Of a DNA stretch of 7,572 nucleotides, positions 1,723-7,559 are shown in pieces. Below the pieces are notes generated by a model. It was not told the origin of the DNA and did no database searches. It saw only the letters and a list, made by a program, of their open reading frames with translations. Position numbers and translations under genes: made by a program. The stretch is from the NCBI GenBank assembly GCA_021780275.1, contig JAJXZC010000244.1, forward strand, positions 1 to 7,572, read 5' to 3'. Source of the DNA: Pseudomonadota bacterium (GTDB lineage: Bacteria > Pseudomonadota > Alphaproteobacteria > Parvibaculales > Parvibaculaceae). Positions within the stretch are counted from its first letter, which is position 1. Each line of letters begins with the position of its first letter.

Positions 1723-3384
1723 ATGACCGACAAGCTCCGCATAGCGCTCGCCCAGCTCAATCCCATTGTGGGCGATATTGCCGGGAACCTCGAAAAGGCT
1801 GTCGAAGCGCGCCGCACGGCTGCGCTCAAGGACGCCGATCTCGTCATGTTCCCGGAACTCTTCCTTGTGGGCTATCCGCCGGAGGACCTGGTCCTGAAGC
1901 CGGCTTTCCAGCGGGCGGCCATGGCCGCAGTCGCGGAGCTGGCCTTGCAGACGGCTGATGGCGGCCCGGCGGTGCTGATCGGCGCGCCCTGGGTGGATGA
2001 CGGCAAGCTCTACAATGCCTTCCTGCTGCTCGATCATGGCGAGATCCGGGGGCATAGCTTCAAGGTCGATCTGCCGAATTACGGCCCCTTCGACGAAAAG
2101 CGCGTTTTCACGCCGGGGCCTGCGCCGGGGCCGCTTTCGGTGCGCGGCGTGCGCATCGGCGTTCCGATCTGCGAGGACATCTGGACGCCGGACGTCGTCG
2201 AATGCGTTTCCGAGACCGGCGGCGAAATCCTGCTCGTCCCCAACGGTTCGCCCTACTGGGCCGACAAGGTGGATGAGCGGCAGAACATCGTCGTCTCGCG
2301 CATTCGCGAAAGCGGGCTCCCGCTGGTCTACCTCAACCAGATCGGCGGTCAGGACGAGCTCGTCTTCGACGGCGGTTCCTTCGTCGTCAATGCGGATTAC
2401 TCAGTCGCGGTACAGATGCCCGCCTGGGAAGAAGCCATCGCCATCACCGACTGGACGCGCACCGATCTCGGCTGGGTCTGCGCGCCCGGCGAAAGGGTGC
2501 TGGTCGAGGAGGATCTCGAGTCCGTTTATCTCGCGGTCGTGCAGGGGCTTCGCGACTATGTGCGCAAGAACCGCTTTCCGGGCGTCGTACTCGGCCTTTC
2601 GGGCGGTATCGACTCCGCGCTTGTCGCCGCTGTAGCGGTGGATGCGCTGGGCGCCGACAAGGTTCACTGCGTCATGCTGCCTTACCGATACACGTCGGAT
2701 GAGAGCATCAAGGACGCGGCAGAATGCGCGAAGCTGCTTGGCGTGCGTTACGACGTCGTGCCGATCGAAGGGCCGGTCGCGGGCTTCACCGATGCATTGG
2801 GACCGCTTTTCGAGGGCACGCAGTCGGGCATCACCGAAGAAAATCTTCAGTCGCGCTCGCGCGGCGTGATCCTGATGGCGATTTCGAACAAGTTCGGTTC
2901 GATGCTGCTGACGACCGGCAACAAGTCGGAAGTGTCGGTCGGTTATGCCACGCTTTATGGCGACATGAATGGCGGCTTCAATCCGATCAAGGATCTTTAC
3001 AAGATGAAGGTCTTTGCGTTGTCGCGCTGGCGCAATGATCACAGGCCGAAGAATTGCCTCGGGCCCACAGGCCGCGTGATCCCCGAGAACATCATCACGC
3101 GTCCGCCGTCCGCCGAACTTCGCCCGGACCAGAAGGACGAGGACTCGCTGCCGCCTTATGAGGTTCTCGACGCGGTTCTCGAATGTCTGGTCGAGAAGGA
3201 AATGGCGATCCGCGACATCGTCGCGCTGGGTTACGACCGGGCAGTTGTGAAGCGGGTGGAGCATCTGCTCTATATTTCCGAGTACAAGCGCCGTCAGGCG
3301 GCGCCCGGCGTCAAGATCACGCAGCGCAATTTCGGCCGCGATCGCCGCTATCCGATCGTCAACGGTTTCCGCGATGCGGATTGA
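1723..3384 (+). CDS. nadE: Glutamine-dependent NAD+ synthetase
   Basis: The 553-residue enzyme catalyses the last step of NAD+ synthesis: deamido-NAD+ is adenylylated with ATP and amidated with ammonia from glutamine. The N-terminal nitrilase-fold glutaminase domain (about 5-255) shows the catalytic triad in context: Glu45 (MFPELF), Lys114 (SFKVDL) and Cys150 (VPICEDIW). The C-terminal synthetase domain (about 270-553) carries the PP-loop GLSGGIDSAL (291-300), TTGNKSEVSVGYATLYGDMNGGFNPI (397-422), the KPPSAELRP-like PPSAELRPDQ (461-470), and the conserved tail YKRRQAAPGVKITQRNFGRDRRYPI. The length fits two-domain bacterial NadE and no key residue is missing. The start at 1723 gives the usual N-terminus (LRIALAQLNPIVGD), although the ribosome binding site (ACGGGAC) is weak. 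It is followed 12 nt later by gltX, which suggests co-transcription. Ammonia is channelled between domains in this family, so the protein likely acts as an oligomer in the cytoplasm. Confidence 0.97.
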   Translation: MTDKLRIALAQLNPIVGDIAGNLEKAVEARRTAALKDADLVMFPELFLVGYPPEDLVLKPAFQRAAMAAVAELALQTADGGPAVLIGAPWVDDGKLYNAFLLLDHGEIRGHSFKVDLPNYGPFDEKRVFTPGPAPGPLSVRGVRIGVPICEDIWTPDVVECVSETGGEILLVPNGSPYWADKVDERQNIVVSRIRESGLPLVYLNQIGGQDELVFDGGSFVVNADYSVAVQMPAWEEAIAITDWTRTDLGWVCAPGERVLVEEDLESVYLAVVQGLRDYVRKNRFPGVVLGLSGGIDSALVAAVAVDALGADKVHCVMLPYRYTSDESIKDAAECAKLLGVRYDVVPIEGPVAGFTDALGPLFEGTQSGITEENLQSRSRGVILMAISNKFGSMLLTTGNKSEVSVGYATLYGDMNGGFNPIKDLYKMKVFALSRWRNDHRPKNCLGPTGRVIPENIITRPPSAELRPDQKDEDSLPPYEVLDAVLECLVEKEMAIRDIVALGYDRAVVKRVEHLLYISEYKRRQAAPGVKITQRNFGRDRRYPIVNGFRDAD

Positions 3385-3396
3385 ACGAGCGTAACC

Positions 3397-4737
3397 ATGA
3401 CCGTCATCGCCCGCTTTGCGCCCAGCCCGACCGGCAAGCTTCATGTCGGCAATATCCGCGCGGCGCTGTTCAGCTGGCTCTATGCGAAGAAGGCGGGCGG
3501 AAAATATCTGCTGCGTCTCGACGATACGGACACGGAACGGTCGACGGAAGAATTTGCCAAGGGGATCGAGACCGATCTCGAATGGCTTGGCTTGAAGCAC
3601 GATATTTTTGCGAGGCAGTCTGACCGGATCGCCGAATATGAGTCTGCCGCGGCGGCCTTGAAGGAAGCGGGGCGCCTTTACCCCTGCTACGAAACCGGGG
3701 CGGAACTCGAACGCAAGCGCAAGCTTCAGCTCTCACAGAAGAAGCCGCCGGTCTATGACCGCGCCGCGCTGAAGCTGACCGATGACGAGAAGCGCGCGCT
3801 CGAAGCGGAGGGGCGCCGCCCGCATTGGCGTTTCAAGCTCGACAGCGAGAAGACGGGCTTTGACGATCTCGTTCAGGGGCATGTGGCGGTCGACGCGGCC
3901 TCGTTGTCGGACCCGGTGCTGGTGCGCGAGGACGGCAGTTTCCTCTACACGCTGCCGAGTGTCGTCGACGATATCGAGTTCCGGGTCACCCATGTCGTTC
4001 GCGGCGCCGACCACATCACGAATACCGGCGTGCAGATTCAGATCGCCCGCGCGCTGGGCGCCGAGCCGCCGGTCTATGCGCATTTCTCGCTTCTGCAGGG
4101 CCCCGAGGGGCGGCCGCTTTCAAAGCGCGAAGATGCCGCCTTTTCGATAGAGGCGCTGCGCGAAGCGGGTTACGAGCCCATGGCAATCAATTCGCTGCTC
4201 GCGCGGCTGGGCACTTCGGACGCGCATGAGGCGCTGTTGTCGCTCGATGAGCTTGCTGCGGGTTTCGACATCTCGCATCTCGGCCGCGCCGACATCCGCT
4301 TCGAGCCCGCCGAACTCGACAGGATGAATGCGTCGATCCTGCACCTCACGCCATACGAGGCGGCACGGGCGCGTCTTGCCGATGCCGGCTGCGATCTCGG
4401 CCCCGCCTTCTGGGATGCGGTGAAGCCGAACCTCGCGCGGTTTGCAGATGTGGCGGAGTGGGCGCGGGTCGTCCGGGGGCCGATCACGCCGGTGATCGAG
4501 GATGCGGACTTTGCCGCGGAAGCCGCCGCCGAACTTCCGGCCGAGCCTTGGGATATCGCGACATGGGGCCTCTGGACCGAGGCGGTGAAGGGGAAGACCG
4601 GCCGCAAAGGCAAGGCACTCTTCATGCCGCTCAGGCTCGCGCTTACAGGGCTCGACCATGGACCGGAGCTCAAAAATCTGCTACCTCTCATCGGGCGCGA
4701 GAGGGCGGAAGCCCGACTTCGCGGCGTAAGTCACTGA
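3397..4737 (+). CDS. gltX: Glutamate--tRNA ligase (class I, alphaproteobacterial type)
   Basis: The 446-residue cytoplasmic enzyme attaches glutamate to tRNA(Glu), and in organisms using GatCAB also to tRNA(Gln). The HIGH-type signature is [17 protein letters not shown] (8-24), with HVGN at 16-19. The Rossmann domain includes [12 protein letters not shown] (38-49) and [22 protein letters not shown] (200-221). The KMSKS equivalent is PLSKRE (240-245). The helical anticodon-binding region ends in [18 protein letters not shown] (401-418), a conserved GltX motif. In the zinc-binding stretch only Cys97 (YPCYET) remains, as in many alphaproteobacterial GltX proteins, so zinc is probably not bound. 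Many alphaproteobacteria carry two gltX copies; this may be either, and its tRNA preference cannot be told from sequence. It starts 12 nt after nadE, probably in one operon, and ends with tandem in-frame stops TGA TAA (4735-4740). Confidence 0.95.
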
Positions 4738-4767
4738 TAAGGCTTATGTTTTCGTAACGGCGAGACG

Positions 4768-4830
4768 ATGGCACCGAACATGGCGATGAAACGCCCGGCC
4801 ATTATTGGGATTCTCATTATTCGCGGCTGA
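4768..4830 (+). CDS. Putative isoleucine-rich leader peptide of cimA (attenuator peptide)
   Basis: A 20-codon ORF starts with ATG 4768 (in-frame ATGs also at 4780 and 4786) and ends in TGA 4828-4830. It encodes MAPNMAMKRP followed by AIIGILIIRG. The codons at 4801-4821 are ATT ATT GGG ATT CTC ATT ATT: five Ile and one Leu in seven. All five Ile codons are ATT, whereas in cimA I count four ATT against about 27 ATC. A short ORF dense in the codons of an end-product amino acid, just upstream of a gene for making that amino acid, is the established hallmark of ribosome-mediated attenuation in ilv, leu, his and trp operons. cimA commits carbon to isoleucine, so the match is specific. The ribosome binding site is weak (GGCGAG, 3 nt from ATG 4768). 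I saw no convincing own promoter; it may be transcribed from the nadE-gltX promoter. Translation is inferred. Confidence 0.6.
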   Translation: MAPNMAMKRPAIIGILIIRG

Positions 4831-4914
4831 CAACAGTCTGCCGCCGCCGTACAAGCTCGCTTAAATTCCATGTGAGATAACGGGTCCGGTCGCGGCAGGG
4901 TGATGCTGTGCGCG
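4823..4914 (+). promoter_or_regulatory. Candidate attenuator with alternative RNA pairings before cimA
   Basis: Four segments can pair in exclusive ways. Segment 1 (GCGGC, 4823-4827, at the leader stop codon) pairs with segment 2 (GCCGC, 4840-4844); the hairpin adds GAC/GTC (4829-4831 with 4836-4838) around an AACA loop with one T-T mismatch. Segment 2, extended to CTGCCGC (4838-4844), can instead pair perfectly with segment 3 (GCGGCAG, 4892-4898). Segment 3 can also pair locally with segment 4 (4891-4897 with 4909-4914, one bulged G), placing GGGTGATGCTG in the loop. Segment 3 runs into AGGGTG, a possible ribosome binding site for the GTG at 4908. No U-tract follows, so control of translation or Rho access seems more likely than an intrinsic terminator. 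Pairings were found by eye without energy calculation, and the direction of regulation is not settled. Confidence 0.4.
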
Positions 4915-4931
4915 TCATACGGAATATGACC

Positions 4932-6569
4932 ATGAGCAGAGAACGCCTCTATCTCTTCGACACGACGCTCCGCGACGGAGCGCAGACGCAGGGCGTCGAC
5001 TTCAACGTCGAAGACAAGCGGCTCATTGCGGGCCTGCTGGATGAGTTGGGCGTCGATTACATTGAAGGCGGCTATCCCGGCGCCAATCCCACCGACACGA
5101 GCTTTTTCAGCGAGCGGCCGGCGCTGAAGCGCGCGAAGTTCACGGCTTTCGGCATGACGAAGCGCGCGGGCCGCAGTGCCTCGAACGATCCGGGGCTCGC
5201 CGCGATCCTCGATGCGGATACGGACGCCGTCTGCCTCGTTGCCAAGAGCTGGGACTTCCAGGTGAGGGTCGCGCTCGGCATCACCAATGAGGAAAACCTG
5301 GAGTCGATCGCGGATAGCGTGAAGGCCATCGCCGCCAAGGGCCGCGAGCCGATGATCGACTGCGAGCATTTCTTCGACGGGTACAAGGCGAACCGCGCCT
5401 ATGCGCTCTCCTGCATCGGGACGGCGCTGGACGCGGGCGCGCGCTGGGCGGTGCTTTGCGACACCAATGGCGGCACGCTGCCGGACGAGGTCGAGCGCAT
5501 TGTCGGCGAGGTGATCGCTTCCGGCGTCTCCGGCGACCGGCTCGGCATCCATGCGCATAACGACACGGAGAATGCGGTCGCGAATTCGCTCGCCGCGATC
5601 CGCGCAGGCGTGCGTCAGGTGCAGGGAACGCTCAACGGGCTGGGCGAGCGTTGCGGGAACGCGAACATCGTTTCGCTGATCCCGACGCTGCTTCTGAAGA
5701 AGGAATATGCAGATCGCTTCGAGATCGCCGTCAGCCTCGAAAGGCTGAAGACGCTGACGCATGTTTCGCGCACGCTGGACGAAATCCTCAACCGCGCGCC
5801 GAACCGCTATGCGCCCTATGTCGGCGAGAACGCCTTTGCTTCCAAGGCGGGCATCCATGTCTCGGCGATCCTGAAGGACCCCGCGACCTATGAGCATGTG
5901 CCGCCGGAAACCGTCGGCAACCAGCGCAAGATCGCCGTTTCCGATCAGGCGGGCCGTTCGAACATCCTTGCCGCGCTTGAAGAGGCCGGCATCAAGATCG
6001 ATCCGAAGGATTCCCGCGTACAGCGGCTTCTCGACGAGGTGAAGGAGCGCGAGTTCCTCGGCTATTCCTATGATGGCGCGGGCGCCTCATTCGAACTTCT
6101 CGCGCGGCGTCTTCTGGGCGAAGTGCCGGAATATTTCGTGATCGAATCCTTCCGGGTGCTGGTTGAACGCCGCTACAACGCGGTGGGCGAATTCGTCACG
6201 GTTTCGGAAGCGACCGTGAAAGTGAATGTGGACGGCGATGTGCTGATTTCTGTGGGCGAGGGCAACGGCCCCGTCAACGCGCTCGATCAGGCGCTGCGCA
6301 AGGATCTCGGCAAATATTCGCCCTATATCGAAGACCTGCGTCTTGCGGACTTCAAGGTCCGTATCCTGACGAGCGGCACCGAAGCCATCACTCGCGTCAT
6401 GATCGAAAGCGCGGACGATATGGGCAACCGATGGTTCACCGTCGGCGTCTCGCCCAACATCGTCGACGCCTCGTTCCAGGCGCTTGTCGATTCCATCACC
6501 TACAAGCTGCTGCGCGACGGCGCGCCCGCGCCCGTCAAACCGGCCAAAAAGATGGAAGTGCGAGTCTAG
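4932..6569 (+). CDS. cimA: (R)-citramalate synthase (2-isopropylmalate synthase family)
   Basis: The 545-residue enzyme of the LeuA/HMGL family condenses acetyl-CoA with pyruvate to (R)-citramalate, the first step of the threonine-independent route to 2-oxobutyrate and isoleucine. The TIM-barrel domain (about 5-270) has DTTLRDGAQTQG (10-21) with the catalytic Arg and metal Asp, EGGYPGANPTDTSFF (45-59), the metal-binding HAHND (207-211), and NGLGERCGNANIV (235-247). A linker with the conserved NRYAPYVGENAFASKAGIHVSA follows (about 291-312), then a C-terminal LeuA-type regulatory domain (about 385-530), the usual site of end-product feedback. The DGAQTQGVDF and YPGANPTDT versions mark CimA rather than LeuA or homocitrate synthase. 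Starts at GTG 4908 and ATG 4926 are in frame; ATG 4932 gives the N-terminus MSRERLYLFDTT that fits the family, with a weak site (ACGGAA) upstream. The upstream Ile-rich leader suggests attenuation in addition to allosteric control. Confidence 0.92.
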   Translation: MSRERLYLFDTTLRDGAQTQGVDFNVEDKRLIAGLLDELGVDYIEGGYPGANPTDTSFFSERPALKRAKFTAFGMTKRAGRSASNDPGLAAILDADTDAVCLVAKSWDFQVRVALGITNEENLESIADSVKAIAAKGREPMIDCEHFFDGYKANRAYALSCIGTALDAGARWAVLCDTNGGTLPDEVERIVGEVIASGVSGDRLGIHAHNDTENAVANSLAAIRAGVRQVQGTLNGLGERCGNANIVSLIPTLLLKKEYADRFEIAVSLERLKTLTHVSRTLDEILNRAPNRYAPYVGENAFASKAGIHVSAILKDPATYEHVPPETVGNQRKIAVSDQAGRSNILAALEEAGIKIDPKDSRVQRLLDEVKEREFLGYSYDGAGASFELLARRLLGEVPEYFVIESFRVLVERRYNAVGEFVTVSEATVKVNVDGDVLISVGEGNGPVNALDQALRKDLGKYSPYIEDLRLADFKVRILTSGTEAITRVMIESADDMGNRWFTVGVSPNIVDASFQALVDSITYKLLRDGAPAPVKPAKKMEVRV

Positions 6570-6644: not shown

Positions 6645-7559
6645 ATGACGACGACACAAAACGAAACCCTGACACGCGAGGCCTACCTCGGCGGCCTTGC
6701 TGCCGGCGCCGGATATATGTTCTGGGGCCTTTCGGTCATTTTCTACCGGCAGCTCGCGCATGTCGTGCCCTTCGAAATTCTGGCGCACCGCACGCTCTGG
6801 AGCATTCTGCTCATCGCGGCGCTGATCTTCGGGCTGGGGCGCGGGGTGCATCTTGGCGCGTTGCTGCGCGACCGCAGGAAGCTTGCGACGCTTGCCTCGT
6901 CGGCGATGCTCCTCGCGATGAATTGGGGCATTTTCATCTGGGCCATCAATTCCGGCCGCATTCTCGAAACGAGCCTCGGCTATTTCATCAATCCGCTGGT
7001 GAGCGTTCTCCTCGGCGTCGCTCTCCTTGGTGAGAGGCTGTCGCGTCCGCAAATCTCCGCCATTGCGCTCGCGGGGGCGGCGGTCGCGTGGTTCACTTTC
7101 TCGCTCGGGTTTCTGCCGTGGATCGCGCTGCTGCTGGCGGCGAGTTTTGCCGCCTATGGCTATTTGCGGAAGATCACGCGGGTCGACGCTCTGTCGGGGC
7201 TTCTCATCGAGGTGGTGGTGATGTCGCCCTTCGCGATTGCCTATCTCGCCTATGCCTCGGCGCATGGCGGAACGGGCTTTGCGAAGGACGGTTGGCTCAC
7301 CGATGTGTTGCTCGTTGCGACGGGACCGATGACGACGCTGCCGCTTGTGCTTTTCACCTATGGCGCGCAGCGCGTTCGGCTGACGACGCTTGGGCTCCTG
7401 CAATATCTGGTGCCGACCATGTCCTTCGTGATCGCCATCTGGGTCTATGGCGAGCCGCTGGGACATGGCCAGATGGTGACCTTCGGCCTCATCTGGATCG
7501 GACTTGCGATCTTCACGATGGACGCGTGGCGGAAGGAGCGGGAGCTTCGCCGCGCCTAG
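6645..7559 (+). CDS. rarD: EamA-family transporter of the RarD type
   Basis: The 304-residue inner-membrane protein of the drug/metabolite transporter superfamily has about ten predicted hydrophobic segments in two EamA repeats. RarD hallmarks are FEILAHRTLWSILLI (43-57), MNWGIFIWAINSGRILETSLGYFINPLVSVLLGVALLGERL spread over 92-132 (the NW-FIWA and SLGYFINPL signatures), and the second-repeat motif LTTLGLLQYLVPTMSFVIAIWVYGEPL over 246-272. The length is typical. The family was named for chloramphenicol sensitivity, but its real substrates are poorly known and members are probably metabolite exporters or permeases. The start ATG 6645 follows a 14-residue polar N-terminus with AAGG about 9 nt upstream; a perfect AGGAGG lies 19 nt upstream, too far to be ideal. 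It is co-directional with cimA, 75 nt downstream, with a hairpin between them, so shared transcription is possible but unproven. Confidence 0.9.
   Translation: MTTTQNETLTREAYLGGLAAGAGYMFWGLSVIFYRQLAHVVPFEILAHRTLWSILLIAALIFGLGRGVHLGALLRDRRKLATLASSAMLLAMNWGIFIWAINSGRILETSLGYFINPLVSVLLGVALLGERLSRPQISAIALAGAAVAWFTFSLGFLPWIALLLAASFAAYGYLRKITRVDALSGLLIEVVVMSPFAIAYLAYASAHGGTGFAKDGWLTDVLLVATGPMTTLPLVLFTYGAQRVRLTTLGLLQYLVPTMSFVIAIWVYGEPLGHGQMVTFGLIWIGLAIFTMDAWRKERELRRA

Follow-up and report, generated by a model that had tools for sequence, protein, structure and literature searches.

The window analysed here, a stretch of 7,572 nucleotides, comes from an incomplete Parvibaculaceae genome (G000, 57.6% complete). 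The closest named record is Parvibaculum sedimenti, whose cimA is 97% identical to that of the window; we took the family name from such named relatives. The plus strand carries, in this order, nadE, gltX, a short leader ORF, cimA and rarD. A preliminary description of this DNA had claimed a 20-codon, isoleucine-rich ORF about 100 nt before cimA, and we found this ORF to be real, with five Ile among seven codons and 101 nt between its stop and the cimA start. The features referred to below are as follows.

1723–3384, plus strand: nadE (gene call in the window)
3397–4737, plus strand: gltX (glutamate--tRNA ligase), the upstream gene (TIGR00464, 340 bits, cut-off 290)
4756–4762, plus strand: AACGGCG box before the leader start, recurring in relatives (by eye)
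4768–4830, plus strand: Ile-rich leader ORF MAPNMAMKRPAIIGILIIRG, 20 codons, from ATG 4768 to TGA 4830, conserved in 39 of 39 relatives
4801–4821, plus strand: proposed regulatory codons Ile Ile Gly Ile Leu Ile Ile, from Ile-codon conservation in the family
4823–4830, plus strand: region 1, GCGGCUGA, leader end and stop, forming helix 1:2 with 4837–4844
4838–4849, plus strand: region 2, CUGCCGCCGCCG, which can pair with region 1 or with region 3
4866–4875, plus strand: potential pairing partner of 4915–4924 (9 of 10 positions, by eye; varies among subclades), lying between regions 2 and 3
4887–4898, plus strand: region 3, CGGUCGCGGCAG, forming helix 2:3
4915–4924, plus strand: segment with the putative cimA Shine–Dalgarno sequence GGAA (4921–4924)
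4932–6569, plus strand: cimA, citramalate synthase (TIGR00977, 625 bits, cut-off 450)
6645–7559, plus strand: rarD (gene call in the window)

A GTG in frame with cimA occurs at 4908, ahead of the ATG at 4932; the relatives fit the ATG better. A sigma-70 promoter scan of positions 4500–5000 returned no promoter-like site. Searching Rfam 15 at the gathering score, for the T-box and all other families, gave no matches in the window or in 10 related loci. This may say little, because Ile/Val attenuators were noted as missing from Rfam as of 2013 in the text of PMC3766115.

The isoleucine-rich leader and its conservation

The Ile codons of the leader start at 4801, 4804, 4810, 4816 and 4819, and account for 5 of the 7 codons across 4801–4821 and 5 of the last 9 codons of the leader. 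All five are ATT, as the preliminary description had noted, although nadE, gltX, cimA and rarD together use 78 ATC, 18 ATT and 2 ATA. The observation holds for the window but not for the relatives, whose leaders are mixed (112 ATT and 53 ATC across the family), and the accompanying suggestion that ATT sets the sensitivity of stalling finds no support in them. ATT is nearly fixed in the last Ile pair alone (37 and 32 of 39), the first pair being mixed.

We estimated how often such a cluster arises by chance. When the 194-nt spacer was dinucleotide-shuffled 5,000 times, 3 of the shuffles contained a short ORF with five or more Ile in eight codons, and 29 one with four or more. The leader is also the sole ORF with at least five Ile in eight codons among the 107 short ORFs of the window (8–60 amino acids, both strands). 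The conservation of the leader is the stronger argument against chance. Our family sample consisted of 40 Parvibaculaceae genomes (a search at the level of the order gave the same 40), of which 39 have cimA; the fortieth, G022, is 84% complete and gave no cimA match at the threshold used. An Ile-rich leader ORF precedes cimA in all 39, at a distance of 101 to 333 nt, and each leader has 3 to 6 Ile within its last 12 codons (just 3, for example, in L005, L008, L014 and L022). Examples are MNPAHSIIQGLIISG, MIRLRASARIIIGTIIISG, MMALAWIIIKGIIIRG and MNIINAIIIKGLIISG. In the usual pattern, from which there are departures, two Ile pairs stand three codons apart, the second of them two codons before the stop; the N-terminal part varies across the family. 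Alignment of related upstream regions had been proposed as a check of the preliminary description, and in all 39 family members it brought out a short ORF that is conserved along with its Ile codons, besides the alternative helices described below.

The pattern of substitutions was analysed in 18 distinct nine-codon blocks, with L028 and L030, whose stop comes one codon later, left aside. In the four main Ile columns the pairwise difference rates were 0.028, 0.082 and 0.34 at codon positions 1, 2 and 3, compared with 0.247, 0.195 and 0.304 for all nine codons; the blocks contain 213 synonymous and 465 non-synonymous codon differences. The Ile columns thus vary at position 3 and hardly at positions 1 and 2, which is a coding signature, and the rates for all codons together with the non-synonymous excess indicate that the peptide changes freely outside them.

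R1, a model of the leader RNA built from the family sequences, matches 39 of the 40 family genomes. A double match in G025 proved to be one element divided into two pieces by an insertion; an extra match in G026 (contig C33), at the end of the contig and accompanied by a gltX of its own, has the appearance of a second strain or an assembly copy; and a match in G010 (contig C81, 24.8 bits) falls within a 395-aa ORF and was set aside as a chance match. Insertions that by eye resemble palindromic repeats lie between the leader and cimA in L007, L012, L014, L116 and L120, with the leader and regions 2 and 3 kept. The ilvB loci examined in the same genomes showed no Ile-rich leader in an alignment that displayed 8 of its 15 sequences. 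The short ORF that recurs before ilvB is another reading frame of the end of the upstream gene, presumably miaA.

Alternative helices and the readout

The leader end could take part in an RNA switch. We scored its helices in a core alignment (A1) of 34 sequences, that is, the 39 minus identical ones and minus L012, which has an insertion between the stop and region 2. Helix 1:2 is paired in 87.0% of cells (n = 34; at most 66.5% in slid versions) and helix 2:3 in 94.7% (n = 34; at most 70.7%). Of the 8 pairs of helix 1:2, 2 are invariant and 2 changed on both sides, and one (columns 19–30) fails in 23 of 34 sequences; helix 2:3 has 12 pairs, 4 of them invariant, 5 varying on one side and 3 on both, with one (columns 30–107) failing in 13 of 34. 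In five rows TAA replaces TGA as the stop, turning G–C into A–U in helix 1:2, a compensatory change. RNAalifold unaided finds most of helix 2:3 (9 pairs), with a small covariation term. From start to start, regions 2 and 3 are about 43–51 nt apart, a range that excludes L026, L027, L029, L032, L114 and L117, where the region 3 pattern hit region 2.

For either helix, 500 shuffles never reached the observed number of paired cells, of double-change cells or the covariation score, a comparison to be read with the caveat that related sequences can beat shuffles without any structure and that the relatives are non-independent samples. The number of pairs with a double change was matched by 315 of 500 shuffles for helix 2:3 and by 41 of 500 for helix 1:2. 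Both helices are, then, well kept, with modest covariation. They are mutually exclusive and one of them overlaps the leader end, as in an attenuator; exclusive downstream helices are a feature of the classical ilv, leu and trp attenuators. Pairing between the AACGGC(G) box before the leader and the 3′ part of region 2 is possible, and might hold the switch off when the leader is not translated.

We searched for intrinsic terminators. No hairpin followed by a T-run was found between the leader stop and the cimA ATG in any of the 39 loci, which is only the chance level, because shuffles lead one to expect just 0.68. In the window itself, the terminator scan gave one weak plus-strand site inside the leader ORF (4794–4809; shuffles mean 0.4) and none between its stop and the cimA ATG. 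With no intrinsic terminator found between leader and cimA, the element does not resemble the classical, terminator-based type of attenuator. The same hairpin and T-run scan at the end of gltX gave 12 of 38 versus 0.4 expected (L005, L006, L009, L010, L011, L013, L017, L019, L020, L021, L023 and L120; the window itself is not among them), each a short hairpin around the gltX stop. As this possible gltX terminator adjoins the leader, cimA in those 12 relatives may need its own nearby promoter or readthrough.

We then modelled the cost of opening the cimA Shine–Dalgarno sequence with a ribosome on the last Ile codon or at the stop, on the assumption that 13 nt are blocked from the first base of the A-site codon; 40 shuffle sets of the segment between region 3 and the Shine–Dalgarno sequence served as the control. 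Across 27 representatives, opening was cheaper in the stalled state than at the stop by a mean of 1.04 kcal/mol (shuffles 0.16, s.d. 0.30, maximum 0.70), and cheaper than in free RNA by 0.59 (shuffles −0.26, maximum 0.32). The shift was favourable by more than 0.5 in 15 of 27 (shuffles mean 7.75, maximum 12) and contrary in one, the window itself (5.04 stalled, 4.41 at the stop). With longer flanks the window became neutral (5.0 in each state), 15 of 35 were favourable and 1 was contrary. L003, the near-twin of the window and omitted from the 27 as a near-duplicate, was favourable (0.55 versus 2.96). Because the window and L003 disagree, the folding model must be considered fragile, with single cases hanging on a few bases; L003 and L001 make this fragility plain. 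Nor do the relatives share one downstream fold, as the segment from region 3 to cimA varies and several of them have insertions in it. In one subclade CAUUGUGGA can pair with UCCACGAUG beside the Shine–Dalgarno sequence, with a compensatory change in L009 and L013 (by eye). On these models, a translational readout at cimA is likely, though short of certain.

We consider it likely that the leader acts as a ribosome-mediated attenuator of cimA that senses charged tRNA-Ile, with stalling releasing the Shine–Dalgarno sequence. When Ile is plentiful, the ribosome would reach the stop and mask the start of region 2, or, after its release, region 1 would pair with region 2; region 3 and the sequence downstream would then be free to fold over the cimA ribosome-binding site. 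When Ile is short, the ribosome would stall at the last Ile codons and cover region 1, so that region 2 could pair with region 3, the downstream fold would be broken and cimA translated. A ribosome that stalled as early as the first Ile pair would not cover region 1, which counts against this mechanism. The computed support for it consists of the conserved ORF, the codon-wise conservation of Ile, the two exclusive helices, the lack of a detected intrinsic terminator and the mean modelled Shine–Dalgarno shift in the relatives; that the leader is translated, that ribosomes stall on it and which way the control runs is what we infer. The sensor of Ile-tRNA for the pyruvate route to isoleucine that the preliminary description had proposed is thus a reading that the ORF conserved in 39 of 39 loci and the alternative helices argue for.

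It is also possible, if on balance rather unlikely, that such an Ile-sensing attenuator has a transcriptional readout, through Rho-dependent or some other U-run-free termination that 2:3 pairing prevents. The logic of helices 1:2 and 2:3 is independent of the type of readout, the window sequence itself showed no Shine–Dalgarno effect, and PMC1262725, in the parts that deal with mycobacterial cys leaders without visible terminators, proposes that they act via Rho. However, the mean Shine–Dalgarno shift goes in the direction expected of translational control and beyond shuffles in two sets of leaders, those before cimA and those before cysS (see below). The models leave the readout of the proposed Ile attenuator probably translational. 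A conserved ORF could also encode a functional small hydrophobic protein, or serve translational coupling to cimA, without any sensing of Ile. We regard this as very improbable, as the N-terminal half is not conserved and what is kept is mainly the Ile positions near the stop and the helices that overlap them; Cys joins Ile where cysS comes first, and as many as 101 to 333 nt lie between leader and cimA. That the Ile cluster is functionless and due to chance, as in the 3 of 5,000 spacer shuffles that reach it, is scarcely credible given its recurrence in 39 of 39 relatives, the third-position variation of its Ile columns and the kept helices.

Cysteine and isoleucine leaders before cysS

Outside Parvibaculaceae, a leader directly before cimA (at least four Ile in eight codons) was found in none of 117 loci. 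These comprised 65 named loci (L048–L113 minus L076) and 52 class loci (L121–L173, L159 being dropped as no cimA motif was found in it); L052 and L055 offered just 161 and 69 nt upstream of cimA. The leader dedicated to cimA of the preliminary description is thus borne out for Parvibaculaceae but not elsewhere, where some loci have a related, Cys-containing leader before cysS. The idea of an element confined to the family was overturned by an R1 match before cysS in G152, and then by leaders before other cysS genes. In the class-wide R1 search 6 of 385 genomes matched, five of them in Parvibaculaceae and the sixth being G152, in which the order is gltX, leader, cysS, cimA.

Leaders with both Cys and Ile before cysS include MKTAATIWCICCTIIIS, MTHTILICRIIIIS, MIGLNHICGICREIIR and MARICNQCCLIITG. 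We counted them in 55 distinct loci, each with fewer than 600 nt from cysS to cimA and 150 nt or more of sequence upstream. A leader with at least two Ile, at least one Cys and at least four of them together in its last 12 residues was present in 25 of 55, versus 1 of 55 on the reverse strand and a mean of 0.62 (maximum 3) in shuffles. Selection on Ile only (at least three) in 65 cysS-first loci, which include the added L307–L326, returned 27 leaders, and all 27 also have Cys; the reverse strand gave 4 of 65 by the Ile criterion, and one or two of the 27 (L316, L262) may be due to chance. The remaining 38 of 65 have no Ile-rich leader by this rule. Where cysS is not within 600 nt before cimA, 6 of 73 loci have an ORF with at least three Ile, none of which we took for a leader. 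In the last 11 codons of the Parvibaculaceae cimA leaders, Cys was found in none of 39.

The Cys/Ile leaders have the same layout as those of the family, in different letters. We aligned 26 of 30 located leaders (A4), a selected set, as the diverged L102, L051, L263 and L215 were omitted; 13 of the 26 come from loci with cysS more than 600 nt before cimA. Here region 1 is AGCUAGCG, region 2 is CGCUGGCU and region 3 is GCCAGC. Helix 1:2 is paired in 89.9% of cells (slid versions at most 44.7%) and helix 2:3 in 88.5% (at most 48.1%); since shuffles score equally well, A4 gives no covariation support of its own. When R1 was run against 16 loci with Cys/Ile leaders, 4 matched below E 0.001, in register with the leader end (L215, 31.1 bits; L048, 24.5; L263, 23.1; L050, 21.6), and 12 had no such match, L251 standing at E 0.019; the remaining Cys/Ile loci gave no match, or none better than chance. 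In a class-wide search R2, a model of A4, matched 12 of 385 genomes; the match stands before a cysS-like ORF in 7 and elsewhere in 5. Leaders of this type are thus confined to some lineages, and R2 had no match in the 5 Parvibaculaceae of the class sample.

A hairpin with a T-run follows the Cys/Ile leader in 2 of 25 cases. Modelled as above for the Shine–Dalgarno sequence of cysS, stalling made opening cheaper by more than 0.5 in 13 of 18 leaders (those with a recognised cysS start, out of 33 given) and was contrary by more than 0.5 in none; the mean gain was 1.87 kcal/mol versus 0.29 in 30 shuffles (maximum 1.08). By eye, region 3 of L065, L090 and L098 can adopt a hairpin that extends into the cysS Shine–Dalgarno sequence.

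In Parvibaculaceae themselves cysS lies apart, with no cimA in the 3′ flank of cysS in any of 30 loci. Upstream of it, a short ORF with CC or CxxC was present in 25 of the 29 loci with enough upstream sequence among L217–L246, compared with 6 of 29 on the reverse strand and a mean of 4.5 (maximum 11) in shuffles; in 23 of 29 it has the form TCCRT (also TCCRTS) or MTCRxC. We found no Cys-rich ORF before cysS in L220, L228, L243 and L246, nor, by eye, a Cys leader before the cysS of the window's own genome (L327), whose nearest relative is L243. The Cys half is thus usual in the family and unseen in the closest branch of the window.

The leader of the window probably shares descent with a Cys/Ile leader of a cysS–cimA operon, with Ile codons but no Cys codons where cysS does not adjoin cimA. 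Judging from the sequences, a Cys/Ile leader would then have been split, and the window probably has its Ile half. We lean slightly towards a broader reading, in which one translational leader senses both Cys-tRNA and Ile-tRNA for cysS and cimA in several lineages of Alphaproteobacteria. In Parvibaculaceae it would have been split, an Ile-only leader staying on cimA and a Cys-only leader arising or staying on cysS, with the codons re-set to the downstream gene and the 1:2/2:3 switch kept. For the change of the Cys codon and the separation of cysS from cimA, we infer the order of events.

Known leaders and the place of cimA in isoleucine synthesis

As described in the text of PMC6123439, the E. 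coli ilvGMEDA, ilvBN and leuABCD attenuators likewise have a short leader ORF in which codons for the regulated amino acids abound. Unlike the ilv, leu and trp attenuators, leaders of the type in the window have no hairpin with a T-run (0 of 39), have cimA as their target and cluster Ile alone. The uORFC-8-2 motif, according to the main text of PMC8632094, precedes the cysS gene of Rhodobacterales, and it has Cys codons in tandem and a U-run at its end; it too is an alphaproteobacterial leader before cysS, and tandem Cys also occurs in our family-f22 leaders (L293, L307–L309), which at a guess belong to the same group. The leader of the window differs in having Ile only and no Cys codon, in standing on cimA and in lacking a U-run, and the main text of PMC8632094, figures not counted, mentions neither isoleucine nor citramalate nor cimA.

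The ilvB-II, ilvB-OMG and ilvB motifs, as far as the text of PMC10272879 presents them, are similar in that an isoleucine-pathway gene is preceded by a leader ORF containing branched-chain codons. They differ in the gene (ilvB), in their mixed branched-chain codons (Thr too in two), in the terminator stem of ilvB-II and in their hosts, Corynebacterium and other bacteria. The Cys leaders of Actinobacteria and the LEU element, in which a run of Leu codons pairs with the Shine–Dalgarno box, share with the window a leader peptide without a visible terminator; compared by their description in PMC1262725 only, they differ in genes, amino acids and phylum. Further branched-chain or Cys leaders appear in sections of PMC11109978, and T-boxes before leuA in sections of PMC12452182. 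The window leader would belong among ribosome-mediated amino-acid leaders in general, outside the terminator-based class. In a literature search that left most subscription papers uncovered, we came across no title or abstract dealing with leaders of cimA or with combined Cys/Ile leaders. A comparative study of 2004 reportedly predicted ilvIH attenuators in Alphaproteobacteria.

We also looked at other entries to isoleucine. Only 2 of the 40 family genomes, both from genus g2, gave a threonine deaminase with the C-terminal regulatory domain of IlvA, PF00585. TIGR01127 exceeded its cut-off in none of the 40; 13 genomes had matches below it (170–322 bits), namely both PF00585 genomes and 11 others (170–282 bits). 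The best TIGR01127 match in G006, the genome nearest to the window and 100% complete, reached 62 bits. CimA is therefore probably the only entry to isoleucine, via 2-oxobutyrate, in many genomes of the family, and such a sole route suits control of cimA by Ile-tRNA.

The presence or absence of Cys codons according to the neighbouring gene amounts to a natural experiment, and supports the sensing role. The lack of a visible terminator makes the question of the readout a testable one. If our reading is true, citramalate synthase, at the entry of the pyruvate route to isoleucine, would be under the control of charged tRNA, for which we found no precedent in print; in the relatives, a single sensor would tie the supply of cysteinyl-tRNA to the synthesis of isoleucine, an unexpected pairing.
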